Source: Natrarchaeobaculum sulfurireducens
GTDB lineage: Archaea > Halobacteriota > Halobacteria > Halobacteriales > Natrialbaceae
Direction of reading: 5' to 3'
Assembly: GCF_003430825.1 (NCBI RefSeq)
Contig: NZ_CP024047.1
Span: 1,984,001 to 2,048,000 of the forward strand
DNA length: 64,000 bases
In this document: in pieces, positions 52,610 to 62,455 of the stretch
How the letters are laid out: each line of letters starts with the position of its first letter
Numbering within the stretch: position 1 is the stretch's first letter
Program-made: the position numbers and the translations under genes
Notes under the pieces: generated by a model
What the model was told of the DNA's origin: nothing
Seen by the model: the letters and a program-made list of their open reading frames with translations, nothing else
Database searches by the model: none

Positions 52610-53359
52610 TTAGGAACTCACCCCCTGGACGCGGACGGTTCCGGCCTCGCCGGCAGTCGCCACCTCGTAGACGTCACGTAGCGAGTCGACGCTCAACCGA
52701 TCACACAACGTCGCTGGGGTCCCCGTCTCGAGCACCTGCCCGTCCTCGATGACGACCACGTCGTCGGCGGTTCGCCCGACGAGTTCGAGGTCGTGTGAAC
52801 TCAGGATGACGGCCGTGCCGTCGTCGGCGAGTTCGGTTGCGATCTCGAAGACGTGGCGTCGCATCCCTGGATCGAGTCCGCTGCCCGGCTCGTCGAGCAC
52901 GATAACGGGCGGGTCACCGATCGTCGCCTGGGCGATACCGACGAGGCGCGTCATCCCGCCCGAAAGCGCCTCGACCGGCCGCTCCGTTGCATCCTCGAGT
53001 CCGACCAGCCGGAGCCGATCGAGCGCGTCGGCTTCGGTCTCGCCGACCAGCGACGAGTAAAACGTCAGCGTCTCGAGAACGGTAAATCCCGGCCGGAACG
53101 CCGGCTGCTGTGGCAGGTAGCCGATGTGACGGACCGTGTCGGCACCGTGAAAGTCGACGGTACCGCCGGTGGGCTCGAGCAGCCCGGCGAGGACGCGAAG
53201 GAGCGTCGTCTTTCCGGAGCCGTTCGGCCCGATCAGTGCGGTGACGCCGTCGCTTTCGATCGTCAGCGAGACCTCCTCCAGAACGGAGACGGTCCCGAAA
53301 TCACGGTCGACTGTCGTTGCCTCCAGTATCGGGGTTCGCGTCGGTGAATGTTCGCTCAT
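52610..53359 (-). CDS. nosF: ABC transporter ATPase NosF
   Basis: A 249-residue ATPase from ATG 53359. Walker A is IGPNGSGKTTLLRVLAGLL, the signature ALSGGMTRLVGIAQA, Walker B PPVIVLDEPGSGLDP and the H-loop LSSHDLE. The position between nosD and nosY, overlapping nosD by four bases, identifies it as NosF rather than a general exporter ATPase. Confidence 0.94.
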   Translation of the reverse strand: MSEHSPTRTPILEATTVDRDFGTVSVLEEVSLTIESDGVTALIGPNGSGKTTLLRVLAGLLEPTGGTVDFHGADTVRHIGYLPQQPAFRPGFTVLETLTFYSSLVGETEADALDRLRLVGLEDATERPVEALSGGMTRLVGIAQATIGDPPVIVLDEPGSGLDPGMRRHVFEIATELADDGTAVILSSHDLELVGRTADDVVVIEDGQVLETGTPATLCDRLSVDSLRDVYEVATAGEAGTVRVQGVSS

Positions 53360-55290
53360 GTATCTGCAGTAGCCGTCGTTCGATCGCAAGACCACGCGTC
53401 ATCGGCCCACGCCGTCTGCTCGAGGAGTTCGGGGTTGTGCGGCGCACAGCTCGGCTGGAGATCCGTGACGCTGCCCGTTCGCATCCCAGGGACCGACCCC
53501 TGGAACCCGAGGATCGCATCGAGCGCCGGCGCTCGCGAGAGCGTGGGTGCGCCGTCGGTCCGGTGGAGCCGCTGGTCGACCGGCGACGTCGGTGAGTACG
53601 CCCGGTCGACCGTTCCGTCGGCCTCGAGACTCATCGCGCCCTGCCAGTAGTTGCCCGAACCGCCGTGAGTCCAGATTCGAAGCGGTCCGGAACCGGCGTC
53701 GGCGTGGACGTCGTTGCCGACGAAGTCGTTGCGAACGACGCGGTTCGTCGGTAGCATCTCGCGTTCGTTCGCGCCGATTTCGTTCCCGGCCATGACGTTG
53801 TGTTCGACGAGCGAGTTCGTCGAGTCGATCTGTAAGCCGGTGCCACCGTCGACGAGGCGGTTGTTCGCGACGTATGCGCTGTCGCCGCTCGGGATCAGGC
53901 CGATTGCGGCGTCGCGGATCTCGTTGTCGACGATCGCGTTTCGCTCAGGTCCCGTCATGATGAAGATACCCGCACTGGTCTGTGACCGAATATCGTTGCC
54001 CGCGAGCAGCGCTTCGGAGGTGTGCATCAGGTGGATGCCGAGGCGGTTGTCCTCGAAGTGAGAGTCGCGGACGATCAATCCATGTGACCGGTGTGAGTAG
54101 ATCGCGTCCCGACCATCGTACACTGTCGACTCTTCGACCACGCCGGGTGCGTGGAACAGAAGGATACCGGCCTGATCGTCCGTTGCCAGCTCAGGGCTGT
54201 AGACGGTCGCGTTCCTGATGACCGGCGCGTCGCTCCGGCGAACGATGATCCCGCTGGCCGAGGAGTGAACGGTCACGTCCTCGACGAGCACCTCGTCTGC
54301 CGTGTGCAGGCCGACACCGGCGTCGCCGCCGGCATAGTTCACCTCGAACGTCTGATCCCAGTCGTCCTCGTCGTCGTCGCCGGGCAGCGGTGCTTCGCCC
54401 TGTCGCTCCGATCCGGAGCCGGTGATCTCGAGGCCGATCAGCGCCGTTCGGTCTGCAGTGGCGGTGATCACGGTGCCGTTACCGTCGCCGCGGATCGTCA
54501 CGTCCCCGTCGCCGCGGATCGTCAGGGGACGGTCGATCTCGAGCGTCTCGTTGTATTCGCCGTCGGGAACCTCGATCGTCGTGTTCGACGGCGCCTCGTC
54601 GATCACCTCCTGAATCGTGTCGGCGTCCTCGCCGACGACAGCCGAGACGGGCCGCTCGGGAAGGTCTTCACGATCTGCGACGTACTCGTCAGCGGTTCGG
54701 TGCTGGTCGCCGACTCGGTCACGGACGGCCGTCGCATCGTCTGACTCGAACGACTGCTCGAGTAAGTCAGTCCACGCGATGACCTCGCCGCCGTGGGCGT
54801 CGACGAACGCGTCGGCGTCGGCACGGTCGCCGAACGGGACGACAGTATCGCCGCTCGGAGTGCTGGCGTCACTTCCGTAGACGAACCAGGCGTCTTCGGC
54901 GTCGATCCAGCCCAGGTCGCCGTCTGCGCGCGGATACCCGTCATCGTCGAGGTCGACGTCCGCCCCCGCGTAGTCGGTAACGTACACCGAGAGTGGATAG
55001 CCGAACTGCTGTTGGTGACCAGCCGTCTCCCGTGCCTCGACGAACGTCTCGACGCCGTAGTAGCCGACGACGTACTGGTACTGTGAGTAAAACACCTGTG
55101 CTCTCGGCAGGTCGACGTCTTCGTGGAGTCCGATCTCGTCTTCCATCGCGAGCCCCATCGAAACGGTATCGTCGAACGGGGCAGGGTCGGCCGACGTATC
55201 GACGTCGACGACGAACAGCCCGATGGCTGCGGCCACCACGACTGCGGCGGCCGCTACCAGAAGAACACTCCTGACTCGACGCTGGGACAC
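53356..55290 (-). CDS. nosD: NosD with NosL-like N-terminal domain, operon copy
   Basis: A 644-residue paralogue of the 46520-48433 protein and the first gene of a nosDFY operon. An N-terminal anchor (VLLVAAAAVVVAAAIGLFVV) precedes a NosL-like stretch (FYSQYQYVVGYYGVETFVEA; VPFGDRADADAFVDAHGGEV), then a right-handed beta-helix with NosD repeats (NDIRSQTSAGIFIM, NEIRDAAIGLI). The start is GTG; a TATA box 29 bases upstream supports it. Confidence 0.92.
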   Translation of the reverse strand: MSQRRVRSVLLVAAAAVVVAAAIGLFVVDVDTSADPAPFDDTVSMGLAMEDEIGLHEDVDLPRAQVFYSQYQYVVGYYGVETFVEARETAGHQQQFGYPLSVYVTDYAGADVDLDDDGYPRADGDLGWIDAEDAWFVYGSDASTPSGDTVVPFGDRADADAFVDAHGGEVIAWTDLLEQSFESDDATAVRDRVGDQHRTADEYVADREDLPERPVSAVVGEDADTIQEVIDEAPSNTTIEVPDGEYNETLEIDRPLTIRGDGDVTIRGDGNGTVITATADRTALIGLEITGSGSERQGEAPLPGDDDEDDWDQTFEVNYAGGDAGVGLHTADEVLVEDVTVHSSASGIIVRRSDAPVIRNATVYSPELATDDQAGILLFHAPGVVEESTVYDGRDAIYSHRSHGLIVRDSHFEDNRLGIHLMHTSEALLAGNDIRSQTSAGIFIMTGPERNAIVDNEIRDAAIGLIPSGDSAYVANNRLVDGGTGLQIDSTNSLVEHNVMAGNEIGANEREMLPTNRVVRNDFVGNDVHADAGSGPLRIWTHGGSGNYWQGAMSLEADGTVDRAYSPTSPVDQRLHRTDGAPTLSRAPALDAILGFQGSVPGMRTGSVTDLQPSCAPHNPELLEQTAWADDAWSCDRTTATADT

Positions 55291-57016: not shown

Positions 57017-57952
57017 TTACGTGTGTCGCTCGAGGAGGTCGTAGCTGCGCTCCCACTCGGCGTCGTCGTCGAAGTACCGCTCGGCGAGGGGGTCCTCGGG
57101 CAGTTCGCCGACCGCTTTCTTCTCCTGGGTGTAGGACGGACGATCCTCGTCGACGTAGTACCGGCCGGTGAGGACGGTCCCTTCGTTGAGAACGTCTTCG
57201 GTCTCGCGCATCATCTCAGCGGCTTCGGCACGGTCGGTGATGTCGAAGTCGTAGTCGTCGGACTCCTGGACGTCGATGTACGGGACGTACTGGCGAGCGT
57301 CCTTGTTCCAGGTCGGACACTGGGTGAGGAAGTCGACGTGGGCGAAGCCGTCGTGTTCGATGGCCTCTTTGATGATCTCTTTGGCCTGGTTCGGGTTGAC
57401 CGCGGCCGTCCGAGCGATGTAGCTCGCACCCGAGGTCAGCGACAGCGACAGCGGTCGTAGCGGCGTCTTCGCGCTTCCCGAGGGCTGGGTCTTCGACTTG
57501 TGGCCCTTGGGGCTGGTGGGCGAGGTCTGCCCTTTCGTCAGCCCGAAGATCTCGTTGTTGAACACGATGTAGGTCATATCGTGGTTCTCACGGGCCGAGT
57601 GGATGAAGTGGTTCCCACCGATCCCGTAGCCGTCACCGTCGCCGCCTGCGGCGATGACCTCGAGTTCGGGGTTTGCCAGTTTCGCTGCGCGAGCGACGGG
57701 CAGCGACCGGCCGTGGATGGTGTGGAAGCCGTACGTGTCGAGATAGCTGTTCAGCTTGCCGGAACAGCCGATCCCGGTAACGGTCAGGACTTCCTCGGGC
57801 GTCTTGCCGACTTCCGGCAGGGCCTGTTTCAGCGACTTCAGGACACCGAAGTCCCCACAGCCCGGACACCAGGTCGGCTGCGGTTCGACACCGGGGGTAA
57901 ACTCGTCGCGGTCGATCTCTCGTTCCTCTCCGATGGCGTTGAATGCACTCAT
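57017..57952 (-). CDS. korB: 2-oxoacid:ferredoxin oxidoreductase, beta subunit (KorB)
   Basis: A 311-residue thiamine-diphosphate-binding subunit. Fe-S ligands are WCPGCGDFG (Cys29, Cys32) and GIGCSGKLNSY, and the TPP motif is GGDGDGYGIGGNHFIHSARE with IVFNN. Together with KorA it decarboxylates a 2-oxoacid (2-oxoglutarate or pyruvate) to acyl-CoA and reduces ferredoxin. ATG 57952 is used because an upstream TTG is less likely. It follows korA after two bases. Confidence 0.94.
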   Translation of the reverse strand: MSAFNAIGEEREIDRDEFTPGVEPQPTWCPGCGDFGVLKSLKQALPEVGKTPEEVLTVTGIGCSGKLNSYLDTYGFHTIHGRSLPVARAAKLANPELEVIAAGGDGDGYGIGGNHFIHSARENHDMTYIVFNNEIFGLTKGQTSPTSPKGHKSKTQPSGSAKTPLRPLSLSLTSGASYIARTAAVNPNQAKEIIKEAIEHDGFAHVDFLTQCPTWNKDARQYVPYIDVQESDDYDFDITDRAEAAEMMRETEDVLNEGTVLTGRYYVDEDRPSYTQEKKAVGELPEDPLAERYFDDDAEWERSYDLLERHT

Positions 57953-57954
57953 GA

Positions 57955-59859
57955 TCAATCACCTGCAGCAGGCTCGATTCGTACCTGTGCGGTTGGTTCG
58001 CGGTCTTCGTCGGCGACGTTGACCTCGTAGCCCTCGACGATCTCCGCCGGCTCGAACGGGTTACCGTTGAACTTGAGTAGGCTGGTCAGCTTCTCGCCGT
58101 ACTGGCCGAGTTCCTTCTGGAGCACGCCGCGGAACTGGCCGGTCGCGTTCATCTCGACGACCATCGCCTCCTCGACGCCCGCTAAGAACTCCGTTAGCTC
58201 TTCTTCGGGGAACGGCATCATATCAGAGACGCTGACGCCCCTGACCGAGTGGCCGTCGTCGTTCAGGCGCTCGATGGCCTCTTCGACGGCACCCTGGGAC
58301 GAGCCCCAGGTGATGATCCCGTAGTCGGCGTCTTCGTCGCCGAAGTAGGTCTGGTTCGACTCGCGTTCTTCGTCGAGTTCGGTACGGATGGCCTCGAGCT
58401 TCTCGAGGCGCCGTTCCATCTGGAAGACGCGGTTGTCGGGGTCCTCTTCGATGTGGCCGACCGGGCTGTGTTCGTTCCCGGTCGCGAGGTAGCGTCCGCC
58501 TTTCTGGCCGGGGAGCGACCGCGGAGCGACCCCATCTTCAGCGTTCTCGTAGTCGAAGCGCTTGAACTTGCCAGAGGCGTCGTGGGCGGCCTCTTTCAGT
58601 TCGTCCTCGGTGAGCGTCGAGCCGAGATCCGGCGCTGGCTCGCGGTCGAAGAAGTCGACGTCGACGTTCATGTTCTCACCCGAGAGCTTCTGGTCGTAGA
58701 TGAGAATCGTCGGGATCTGGTAGTCCCAGGCGATCTCGAATGCGAGTCGGGTCTGCTCGTACGCCTCCTGGATGTTTCCGGGCGCGAAGACGACGCGCTG
58801 GGAGTCGCCCTGGCTCGTATAGAGGACGAACTCGAGGTCGGACTGTTCGGGCTTCGTCGGCATCCCGGTCGAGGGGCCAGCGCGCATCGATTCGACGAGC
58901 ACGATCGGCGTCTCGGTCATCTCGGCGAGGCCGAGCGGTTCGCTCATCAGCGCAAAGCCACCGCCCGAAGAGCCGGACATGGCCTTGACGCCAGCGTGGC
59001 TCGCACCGACTGCGAGTGCGGCCGCGGCGACCTCGTCTTCGACCTGCTCGGAGATGCCGCCCATGTCGGGGAAGTTCTGGCTGAGGATGGTGAACACGTC
59101 CGTCCACGGCGTCATCGGGTAGCCAGCGATGAACCGACAACCGGCGTCGATCGCGCCGTAGGCGATCGCGTTCGAGCCAGAGAGCAGCGCCTGCTCGGTC
59201 TCGTGTTCTCCCGTCGGGGCACGGAGTTCGTGATCGAACTCGTACTCGTCACGGGTCGTCTCGTAGGCCTCGTGGAGAATGTCGATATTCGCCTCGAGGA
59301 CGTCACCGGACATGGCGTCTTCCATCAGGTCCTCGATGTGCTCGAGTTCCATGTCGAGCAGCGCCGCGGTGACGCCGACGCCGGCGGTGTTGCGCATGAC
59401 TTCGCGGCCGTGTTCCTTGGCGAGGCCGCGGAGATCCATCGGGTAGACGTGCCAGTTGTTCTCCTCGGCACGTTCCTCGAGGTTGATCGCCTCGACGTCC
59501 TCGTCGCTGACGAGACCCGCGTCGTAGACGATGATGCCACCCTCGCGCAGTTCGTCTAGGTTCTCCGAGAGCGGCTTGATCTCTTCGTTGCCGTAGTAGG
59601 CCTCTTCCTGCGGGTTCCGGGCGAACGAGTCACCCAGCGAGAGCAGGAAGTTGTAGCCGTCTCCCCGTGACTGTACATCCCGGTCTGCGGCTCGGATCTC
59701 GACGTAGGTGTGGCCACCACGGATCCGCGATGGATAGTGGCGGTGTGTGAACACGTCGAGCCCCGAGCGCATCAGCGCTTTCGCGAAGTTCTGGCTCGTC
59801 GAGTCGATCCCGTCTCCGGAACCGCCTGCGATTCGCCAGATAAGTTCGTCATCGCTCAT
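57955..59859 (-). CDS. korA: 2-oxoacid:ferredoxin oxidoreductase, fused gamma-alpha subunit (KorA)
   Basis: A 634-residue fusion: the N-terminal gamma-type domain with IAGGSGDGIDSTSQNFAKAL and HRHYPSRIRGGHTYVEIR, then the alpha domain with GSNAIAYGAIDAGCRFIAGY and PMTPWTD. Further along lie GVKAMSGSSGGGFALMSEP and the transketolase-like C-terminal part (YGIITWGSSQGAVEEAIERL). This fusion is the standard haloarchaeal form. Upstream in-frame ATGs would add 34 residues with no homologous look. Confidence 0.95.
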   Translation of the reverse strand: MSDDELIWRIAGGSGDGIDSTSQNFAKALMRSGLDVFTHRHYPSRIRGGHTYVEIRAADRDVQSRGDGYNFLLSLGDSFARNPQEEAYYGNEEIKPLSENLDELREGGIIVYDAGLVSDEDVEAINLEERAEENNWHVYPMDLRGLAKEHGREVMRNTAGVGVTAALLDMELEHIEDLMEDAMSGDVLEANIDILHEAYETTRDEYEFDHELRAPTGEHETEQALLSGSNAIAYGAIDAGCRFIAGYPMTPWTDVFTILSQNFPDMGGISEQVEDEVAAAALAVGASHAGVKAMSGSSGGGFALMSEPLGLAEMTETPIVLVESMRAGPSTGMPTKPEQSDLEFVLYTSQGDSQRVVFAPGNIQEAYEQTRLAFEIAWDYQIPTILIYDQKLSGENMNVDVDFFDREPAPDLGSTLTEDELKEAAHDASGKFKRFDYENAEDGVAPRSLPGQKGGRYLATGNEHSPVGHIEEDPDNRVFQMERRLEKLEAIRTELDEERESNQTYFGDEDADYGIITWGSSQGAVEEAIERLNDDGHSVRGVSVSDMMPFPEEELTEFLAGVEEAMVVEMNATGQFRGVLQKELGQYGEKLTSLLKFNGNPFEPAEIVEGYEVNVADEDREPTAQVRIEPAAGD

Positions 59860-60124: not shown

Positions 60125-61927
60125 GTGTCATACATTGTCAAAATGCCGAAACTCGGGCTCGAGATGGAACGTGGGGAACTCCTCTCGTGGGAGATCGATC
60201 AAGGAGCGACGCTCGAGAAAGGCGAGGTCATCGCGGAAGTAGAATCCGAAAAGAGCGTCGCGGAGGTCGAAGCCCGTGAAACGGGTGTCCTGAAGCGAAC
60301 GTATCTCGACGCAGGTGAAACCGTCCCGCCGGGAACGCCGATCGGGATCGTCGCATCCGCCGACGCTGATATCGGCGACCTCGAGGCGGAGGTCGAGGCC
60401 GAACTCGACGCCGTCGGCGACGCCGACGAATCGGCCACGGACGAATCGGAGCCACAGGCGGCGAGCGACGACGAGGCCGGAGCGACCGCCACTCGAGCGG
60501 CTGACGACGGAGACGTTCAGGCGTCACCGCGTGCACGGGCACGTGCCGACGACCTCGGCGTCGACCTCACGACCGTCGGGGGGACTGGCTACCAGGGTGC
60601 GATCACCGAAGCCGACGTCGAAGCAGCCGCAGAATCCGGAACAGGGGTCGACGACGCCGACGTCGACGTCTCGCCACGGGCCCGAAAGCGAGCCGAGGAA
60701 CTCGGCGTCGACCTGACAGGCGTCGACGGAACCGGCTACCAGGGAGCCATTACGGAAGCCGACGTCGAGGACGCGGCGGCGACCGCGGATGGCCGCACCC
60801 GACTGGAGACGCGCACCCTCGACGGGATGCGTCGCACTATCGCCAGCCGGCTCGGCGAAAGCTACCGCGAGGCCGTCCACGTCACCGCCCACCGTGAGGC
60901 CGACGCCGAGGCCCTCTTCGATGCCGCCGACGCCGCCGCGGACGCCCTCGAGATGGACGTCACCATCCAGGACATTCTTGTCCTCGCCGTTTCGGCGACG
61001 CTCGAGGACCACCCCGCGTTCAACGCGACCTTCGAGGACGACGAACACGTCCTCTGGGCGGAACACAACCTCGGCCTCGCCGTCGACGTCGAACACGGCC
61101 TGATTACGCCGGTCCTGTCGGACGTCGGGAGCAAATCCCTCGAAACGATCGCCACGGAGCGTCGCGAGGTCGTCCAGTCGGCCCTCGACGGCACCTACAC
61201 CATGGACGACCTTCGCGGCGGGACGTTCACGATCACGAACCTCGGCGTCCTCGGCGTTGAGGCGTTCGATCCGATCATCAATCCGCCACAGATCGCCATC
61301 CTCGGCGTCGACGCCATCGACGAAGCCCACATCCGCGGCGCAGACGACGGCCTCGAGTGGCGACGGCGACTCCCGTTCGACCTGACGTTCGACCACCGGA
61401 TCGTCGACGGGGCCGACGCCGCCCGCTTCCTCGAAACGCTCGTCGGGCACGTCGAAGAGCCGTGGTCGCTGCTTCCCGACGAGGTGGACCGAACCGCAGG
61501 CGCTCGAGCCGGCGCGGCGACGGCGATGCCCGACCGAACGGTCACCGCGCACAATCCGGACGGGATGGCCGGCACGATCGAAGCCGGCTCGTTCGAGTGG
61601 ACCTACGACGAGCCCGAGGAGGCCGGCGGCACGGAGACGGGGCCGACGCCGGTCGACGTCTTCCTCAGTGGGCTCGCCGCCTGTCTGTCACTGAGCATCC
61701 GCTTCCAGGCGAGTAAACGCGAGACGCCGGTCGACGCCATCGAGGTGACGACCGATGCCGAACCCGCCCACGGCGCCGTCGAACAACTCGAGGCGACGAT
61801 TCGACTCGAGACGGACGCCGACGACGAGACGGTCGACCGACTCGTCGACCTCGGCGAGCGCGGCTGTCACGTCTCGCAACTGCTCGGCGACGACGTCCCA
61901 ATGGAACTCTCCTGGGAGCGCGTTTAG
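60125..61927 (+). CDS. Dihydrolipoyl acyltransferase E2 with tandem E3-binding domains fused to an OsmC domain
   Basis: A 600-residue protein starting at GTG 60125 (MSYIVKMPKLGLEME). In order: one lipoyl domain (residues 1-77; lipoyl Lys43 in VESEKSVAEV), an acidic linker, and two copies of the peripheral subunit-binding domain (about 133-169 and 182-218, each SPRARxRAxxLGVDLTxVxG). The catalytic E2 core follows (about 227-448; FDHRIVDGADAARF with His424 and Asp428). Residues about 469-600 form an OsmC/Ohr-type domain with TPVDVFLSGLAACLSLSIRF (Cys520) and ERGCHVSQLLGDD (Cys581). E2 normally ends after the core. No E1 or E3 gene is in the window. OsmC/Ohr proteins are known to use dihydrolipoyl groups as reductant, so an in-cis lipoyl-dependent peroxidase is plausible but inferred. 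Confidence 0.9.
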   Translation: MSYIVKMPKLGLEMERGELLSWEIDQGATLEKGEVIAEVESEKSVAEVEARETGVLKRTYLDAGETVPPGTPIGIVASADADIGDLEAEVEAELDAVGDADESATDESEPQAASDDEAGATATRAADDGDVQASPRARARADDLGVDLTTVGGTGYQGAITEADVEAAAESGTGVDDADVDVSPRARKRAEELGVDLTGVDGTGYQGAITEADVEDAAATADGRTRLETRTLDGMRRTIASRLGESYREAVHVTAHREADAEALFDAADAAADALEMDVTIQDILVLAVSATLEDHPAFNATFEDDEHVLWAEHNLGLAVDVEHGLITPVLSDVGSKSLETIATERREVVQSALDGTYTMDDLRGGTFTITNLGVLGVEAFDPIINPPQIAILGVDAIDEAHIRGADDGLEWRRRLPFDLTFDHRIVDGADAARFLETLVGHVEEPWSLLPDEVDRTAGARAGAATAMPDRTVTAHNPDGMAGTIEAGSFEWTYDEPEEAGGTETGPTPVDVFLSGLAACLSLSIRFQASKRETPVDAIEVTTDAEPAHGAVEQLEATIRLETDADDETVDRLVDLGERGCHVSQLLGDDVPMELSWERV

Positions 61928-61945: not shown

Positions 61946-62455
61946 CTACTCGGGGTAGGTCATCTCCGGTTCCGGAATCGCCTCGAGGTTCGCCGCGGTC
62001 TCGAAGATCGTCCCGTTGAGTTCGTCTGCGGTGTCGAAGTACCAGTACTCGACGCCGTCGAAGTTCCCGCTCTGGATCACGGGCATTCCGGCGTCCTCGA
62101 AGGCGTCGATGACCGCGTGTGTGTCCTCGAACGCGAAACACGCCACGTGGTGGAGCCCCTCGCCGTGTTCGTCGAGGTGTTCGGTGTAGATACTCGGACC
62201 CTCGAGCGGTTCGATCAACTCGAGCATCGTCTCGCCGACGTCCGCAAGCGCCAGCCGCATGGCGTACTCGTGGGACTCGCCGCGGAACGTGCGATCGGTC
62301 AGCGCTGGCGGCTCGAACCGGTAGACGTCCCAGGGGCCGACGCCAAGGATGTTCGAGAAGCGATCCATCCCGTCCTCGAGGTCCTCGACGACGAACGCCA
62401 CCTGCGTGATCTCGGGGATTTCGACGTCTAACTGTGGGATGTCTGGACTTGCCAT
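61946..62455 (-). CDS. VOC (glyoxalase/bleomycin-resistance) superfamily protein
   Basis: A 169-residue VOC protein with two beta-alpha-beta-beta-beta halves: EITQVAFVVEDLEDGMDRFS with ILGVGPWDVY, and GEGLHHVACFAFEDTHAVID with the metal-site-like ELNGTIFET at the end. Conserved His/Glu positions (HHVACF, LNGTIFE) suggest a bound metal. It resembles epimerase/glyoxalase members, but the substrate is unknown. It converges with the E2-OsmC gene. Confidence 0.9.
   Translation of the reverse strand: MASPDIPQLDVEIPEITQVAFVVEDLEDGMDRFSNILGVGPWDVYRFEPPALTDRTFRGESHEYAMRLALADVGETMLELIEPLEGPSIYTEHLDEHGEGLHHVACFAFEDTHAVIDAFEDAGMPVIQSGNFDGVEYWYFDTADELNGTIFETAANLEAIPEPEMTYPE

Follow-up and report, generated by a model that had tools for sequence, protein, structure and literature searches.

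A haloarchaeal lipoyl-E2 carries a C-terminal OsmC domain that is retained after loss of the E2 core and the lipoyl lysine

In the window, the whole stretch of 64,000 nucleotides of Natrarchaeobaculum sulfurireducens DNA analysed here, we found a gene that encodes a genuine lipoyl-E2 acyltransferase with a C-terminal OsmC domain. Comparison with relatives showed that this tail is accessory to the complex to which the E2 belongs, and that the complex in turn is dispensable to the tail. With moderate confidence, we propose that the tail is an accessory redox module with a pair of cysteines that rides on the E2 yet is independent of it.

The gene (60125..61927, plus strand, stop codon included) starts with GTG and has 600 uninterrupted codons for a protein of 600 amino acids, the homologues of which begin at an equivalent MGYIV or MSYIV. 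All Pfam domains of the protein scored above their gathering scores, and all features given in this paragraph lie on the plus strand. The lipoyl domain (residues 5-74; 60137..60346; Pfam Biotin_lipoyl, 46.6 bits) has the lipoyl Lys43 (codon 60251-60253) in an ESEK motif, a type of motif found in 45 of the 47 full fusions described below. It is followed by two tandem peripheral subunit-binding domains, the first at about residues 133-170 (60521..60634), as delimited from the Pfam E3_binding stretches and the sequence, and the second at about residues 182-222 (60668..60790; best stretch 182-215), Pfam E3_binding matching twice with 86.9 bits. The acyltransferase core (residues 229-450; 60809..61474; Pfam 2-oxoacid_dh, 217.6 bits) has an HxxxDG motif with His424 and Asp428 (61394-61408) that is conserved among relatives. 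A linker of about 17 residues then leads to the OsmC domain, of a YhfA-like class as judged below (residues 468-600; 61526..61924; Pfam OsmC 502-595, 63.6 bits), with Cys520 (codon 61682-61684) and Cys581 (codon 61865-61867).

The original prediction of a complete E2 fused to an OsmC domain was thus borne out by one intact frame and its Pfam architecture, including the numbering of Lys43, His424, Asp428, Cys520 and Cys581, which agreed with the sequence and with the relatives; what it had overlooked is that the subunit-binding domain is in tandem. Because no frameshift or stop lies between the core and the OsmC part, and because the same arrangement recurs in 47 distinct haloarchaeal proteins, the fusion is neither a product of chance nor an assembly artefact. 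The ESEK-lysine lipoyl domain, the subunit-binding domains, the full HxxxDG core and the nearby genes for E1-alpha and E1-beta are shared with the 2-oxoacid dehydrogenase E2 proteins (PF00198), to which the haloarchaeal protein adds the OsmC domain and the second subunit-binding domain. The AlphaFold model of the full chain (pLDDT 57.6) was too uncertain for placing the OsmC tail on the E2 core.

The E2-OsmC gene had been described as having no E1 or E3 partners nearby. The E1 part of this description does not hold, since genes for AcoX (64725-65732 in window-equivalent numbering; C3:2048725-2049732), E1-beta (65742-66749; C3:2049742-2050749) and E1-alpha (66746-67894; C3:2050746-2051894) lie on the window's own contig 0.7-3.9 kb past the window edge, all on the minus strand and facing the E2-OsmC gene. 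By Pfam, their products are a NAD-kinase-family protein (the AcoX-like one), a transketolase-type E1-beta and an E1_dh protein, respectively, and their presence excludes an orphan E2. The E3 part does hold, as an acoL-type E3 gene is absent from the locus. The PDH operon, at a distance of 1.3 Mb, encodes a dihydrolipoyl dehydrogenase that clearly exceeds the cut-off of its family, and the genome also encodes a lipoate ligase-family protein.

Between the E2-OsmC and AcoX genes lies a gene for a glyoxalase/VOC protein (61946..62455, minus strand) that is weakly methylmalonyl-CoA epimerase-like (TIGR03081, 40.7 bits, below cut-off) and is a conserved neighbour at this position in many relatives; the aco cluster of Pelobacter carbinolicus also holds a gene of the methylmalonyl-CoA epimerase family (PMC3543383). 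On the other side, the genes for the alpha (korA, 57955..59859, minus strand; TIGR03710, 633 bits) and beta (korB, 57017..57958, minus strand; TIGR02177, 284.7 bits) subunits of a 2-oxoacid:acceptor oxidoreductase, both above cut-off, are divergent from the E2-OsmC gene, as had been noted, and korA is a conserved divergent neighbour outside the complex. This arrangement, with E1 and AcoX facing E2, korAB divergent in the family of the window, and often the VOC gene in between, is repeated in most relatives. Farther away, a NosD-like parallel beta-helix protein (53356-55290; TIGR04247, below cut-off) may belong to a locus for nitrous oxide reductase maturation.

The partner genes mark the locus as an acetoin-dehydrogenase-type cluster by sequence. 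The E1-alpha has 49-50% identity with bacterial AcoA and 30% with the PDH E1-alpha of the same genome, while the E1-beta separates weakly (45% to the bacterial aco protein vs 42% to PDH) and AcoX is 34% identical to its bacterial counterpart. The bacterial relatives of the AcoX-like protein are located in AcoX-AcoA-AcoB-AcoC clusters annotated as acetoin dehydrogenase, of which acoX is typical (PMC3543383), and for H. volcanii HVO_0669/0668 the listed identities with B. subtilis proteins for which acetoin was characterised as the substrate are 54%/47% (PMC8305020). From these likenesses, acetoin is the likely substrate of the complex. The haloarchaeal cluster shares with the proteobacterial acoX-acoA-acoB-acoC clusters an AcoA-like E1-alpha, an AcoB-like E1-beta and an AcoX-like NAD-kinase-family protein in one locus, but differs in an E2 with a true core and an OsmC domain, in its convergent orientation and in having no E3 gene. 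Bacterial AcoC, annotated as the E2 of the acetoin kind, aligns with the haloarchaeal E2 over the lipoyl domain only. We take AcoC to consist of a lipoyl domain and an alpha/beta hydrolase.

Does the tail act as a peroxidase of the Ohr type? It had been suggested that the fusion tethers a hydroperoxide reductase to its reductant, so that the lipoyl arm alternates between acyl transfer and the delivery of electrons to Cys520. The premise is correct, as both Ohr and OsmC take lipoylated E2-type proteins as reductant (PMC8945050, PMC5962072); the fusion puts the two partners together, the genome encodes a lipoate ligase-family protein and an E3, and both OsmC cysteines were present as claimed, the equivalents of Cys520 and Cys581 being kept in all 61 distinct OsmC domains that we compared. 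On the other hand, the other catalytic residues of Ohr are missing. In profile alignments, the catalytic Arg (Arg19 of X. fastidiosa Ohr) aligned with Met481 or Asp479, and 49 of the 61 domains have M or L at position 481. Since residues 472-520 of the window protein contain no Arg and no Lys at all, no residue of that loop can replace the Ohr Arg. The position of Ohr Glu51 is Val510 in the window protein and V in 56/61 domains. The next position, 511, is always acidic (D in 57, E in 4), and the acid at Asp511 could take part in the chemistry. In X. fastidiosa Ohr, R19A or E51A leaves residual activity only (PMC5962072). Moreover, the tail scored 24.6 bits against the Ohr family TIGR03561, far below the cut-off of 88.85.

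The AlphaFold model of the tail confirmed the OsmC fold, the N-terminal loop that carries the Arg in Ohr being of low confidence (pLDDT < 50), and Foldseek matched the model with probability 1.00 to Ohr, OsmC and related structures. Among the matches listed, the top TM-score was that of 1ml8, which we take to be E. coli YhfA and regard as a structural hint. The closest solved sequence is PDB 9wo1, a 400-residue 'Osmotically inducible protein C' (E 4.4e-08). Judged also by its length, 9wo1 is presumably an alpha/beta-hydrolase-OsmC fusion, which like the window protein has OsmC as the C-terminal domain of a larger protein, but with a partner domain that is not an E2. The YhfA class of the Ohr/OsmC superfamily has the OsmC fold and keeps the two cysteines, lacks the Arg and Glu, and is one whose biochemistry remains to be investigated (PMC8945050); YhfA was left out of the proven peroxidases (PMC4069020). 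Because the Arg and Glu of Ohr and OsmC are both absent, the tail by its sequence matches this class. It differs from the YhfA proteins of PMC8945050, which are without an E2 fusion and outside dehydrogenase loci, and also from the lipoyl-dependent Ohr/OsmC peroxidases, with which it has in common the fold, the cysteine pair and a possible lipoyl partner.

To see how the tail is distributed, we searched 391 haloarchaeal genomes with the OsmC part alone as query, which returned many long open frames of about 600 amino acids; in a family-wide search, the OsmC domain was found in 55 of 125 genomes. Neighbourhoods were then fetched, frames called and domains compared, and the resulting 61 distinct OsmC domains comprise 47 full fusions, which span several families, 11 proteins in which a lipoyl-like part leads directly into OsmC, and three stand-alone forms. 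Close relatives of the tail occur only in haloarchaea within the genomes searched. As to a fusion outside haloarchaea, 393 genomes of the phylum yielded no long frame with a close relative of OsmC; two long frames in this set had distant OsmC matches (G608 and G013), the OsmC frame in G013 having 154 amino acids (L118). A plasmid origin was rejected, as no plasmid record covered 80% of the protein and there was one distant OsmC match only. Within haloarchaea the fusion is strongly associated with AcoX, being carried by 47 of 82 AcoX-positive genomes vs about 17 of 309 others by our own tally.

The association is not absolute. The OsmC tail is absent from ten type-A E2s with the same E1/AcoX surroundings, so the complex does not need it. 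In three genomes of the Haloterrigena group, the OsmC-bearing E2 is gone, another E2 subtype adjoins E1/AcoX, and OsmC is encoded nearby as a free protein. The OsmC frames there have 192 amino acids, and we counted them as stand-alone because their first 60 residues resemble upstream read-through, the domain starting at the equivalent of a conserved Met468. Both observations would suit an accidental fusion, in which OsmC is an ordinary cytosolic protein that is merely co-translated with the E2 and has no functional link to it. We consider this highly improbable, since 47 proteins from several families have kept the fusion, among them some from paralogous operons that hold other E1 pairs, and since the association with AcoX is strong. 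At four loci (L114, L115, L116 and L057), E2-OsmC fusions adjoin more distant E1-alpha/E1-beta pairs and no AcoX, so the fused module has spread to, or diverged into, paralogous complexes.

The opposite case, a tail without its complex, was found in the 11 proteins with a lipoyl-like part, from which the E2 core and the two subunit-binding domains have disappeared. The lipoyl Lys is present in none of these core-less proteins vs 45 of the 47 full fusions, although the remnant still gives a Pfam match to the lipoyl domain, in many cases with a score close to or under the gathering score. None of the 11 has AcoX in its neighbourhood; in the nine core-less genomes that were searched in full, AcoX was absent genome-wide (nine of nine) and the best E1-beta dropped to the level of paralogues (41-50% identity). 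In quick trees, with SH-aLRT as the only support, the core-less state required six changes, at least four of them forced by well-supported branches. On at least four branches, then, the E2 core disappeared together with the lipoyl lysine and E1/AcoX.

The OsmC domain did not decay with them. In pairs of core-less proteins, its dN/dS of 0.16-0.18 fell among the values of the intact forms, whereas that of the lipoyl part was 0.24-0.38 vs 0-0.11 in intact pairs. The OsmC domain and both its cysteines are therefore under purifying selection after the loss of E2 and the lipoyl site. Since 11 proteins without core and lipoyl Lys and three stand-alone proteins keep the domain, the tether is dispensable for its job, and since it has persisted more than once where the rest of the complex was lost, that job is the domain's own. 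The kept lipoyl Lys in the full fusions is uninformative on this point, because E2 function alone demands the same Lys. Together with the missing Arg and Glu, the persistence of the domain without a lipoyl Lys, or without any lipoyl domain or E2, makes the tethered, lipoyl-fed peroxidase of the original prediction unlikely. One protein (L071:8188-9618, G029) has an E2 core with an intact HRVVDG and OsmC, but no lipoyl lysine, subunit-binding domain or AcoX, and is possibly an intermediate of decay.

The same persistence bears on a structural or regulatory tail, which would dimerise and link E2 trimers, or close the complex in the manner of a redox switch. OsmC proteins are homodimers, and the tail sits at the C-terminus behind the linker; in E2 cages, the C-terminal region makes the contacts between trimers. 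Yet a pure scaffold would not be expected to survive without any E2 core, and both cysteines are kept in every one of the 61 domains; we find such a role more doubtful still than that of a lipoyl-fed peroxidase.

We prefer the accessory redox module, which would work as follows. The gene product would be the E2 of an acetoin-dehydrogenase-type complex, with a YhfA-class OsmC domain added at its C-terminus. The lipoyl arm on Lys43 would take up the acyl group at E1, deliver it to the core (His424) and be reoxidised by an E3 encoded elsewhere, probably that of PDH. Each E2 subunit would bear one thiol-redox tail (Cys520/Cys581), most likely reducing oxidised thiols or peroxides near the complex. 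Neighbouring dihydrolipoyl arms are a plausible but non-obligatory reductant, the arm being optional because selection still maintains the domain where both the lipoyl site and the complex have disappeared. The lipoyl-free forms presumably use another thiol donor such as gamma-glutamylcysteine, a main small thiol of haloarchaea (PMC7278568). We infer both the redox role, from the cysteine pair alone, and the reductant. It is possible, though we put it forward only tentatively, that a YhfA-class thiol-redox activity was coupled to an acetoin-type E2 through the lipoyl donor and was later freed several times by a switch of donor. If so, the natural forms, from intact proteins through those without the core to OsmC alone, would give the YhfA class its first known function.

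In the literature searched, which left subscription journals outside its scope, there was no OsmC combined with an E2 fusion or with a haloarchaeal E2. The parts are known and the architecture is new to that literature, though domain databases may already list it. Here a domain of the YhfA class is joined to an E2 that bears a lipoyl group and has a metabolic role that can be predicted, and the distribution corrects the notion that fusion to an E2 alone proves dependence on the lipoyl arm. Full fusions, E2s that lack the tail at the same locus, tails that lack an E2 or the lipoyl lysine, and tails that stand alone are natural controls, and therefore the role of the YhfA class and its feeding by lipoyl are directly testable in genetically tractable haloarchaea.

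Several loci deserve separate mention. In one fusion (L125:7586-9568, G402), the lipoyl region is seemingly out of frame while E1, AcoX and the remaining protein look intact; the lesion appears to be a sequencing error or recent damage. In another genome, a second OsmC copy broken by internal stops (G297:C1:3945580-3945941) lies beside an intact fusion. A second 'E2' subtype, linked to AcoA/AcoB/AcoX, forms one clade of 15 loci (L094, L095, L097, L098, L099, L100, L103, L104, L106, L107, L109, L092, L039, L040 and L042), keeps the lipoyl and subunit-binding domains, and has a core without HxxxDG (for example, LTYDTRAI replaces LSFDHRVVDG), so that by its sequence it is apparently dead as an acyltransferase. 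Some of these loci hold an adjoining alpha/beta hydrolase. The AcoC proteins at L090:9085-10218 and L091:9127-10245 are a further example of a lipoyl domain that is combined with a non-classical partner.
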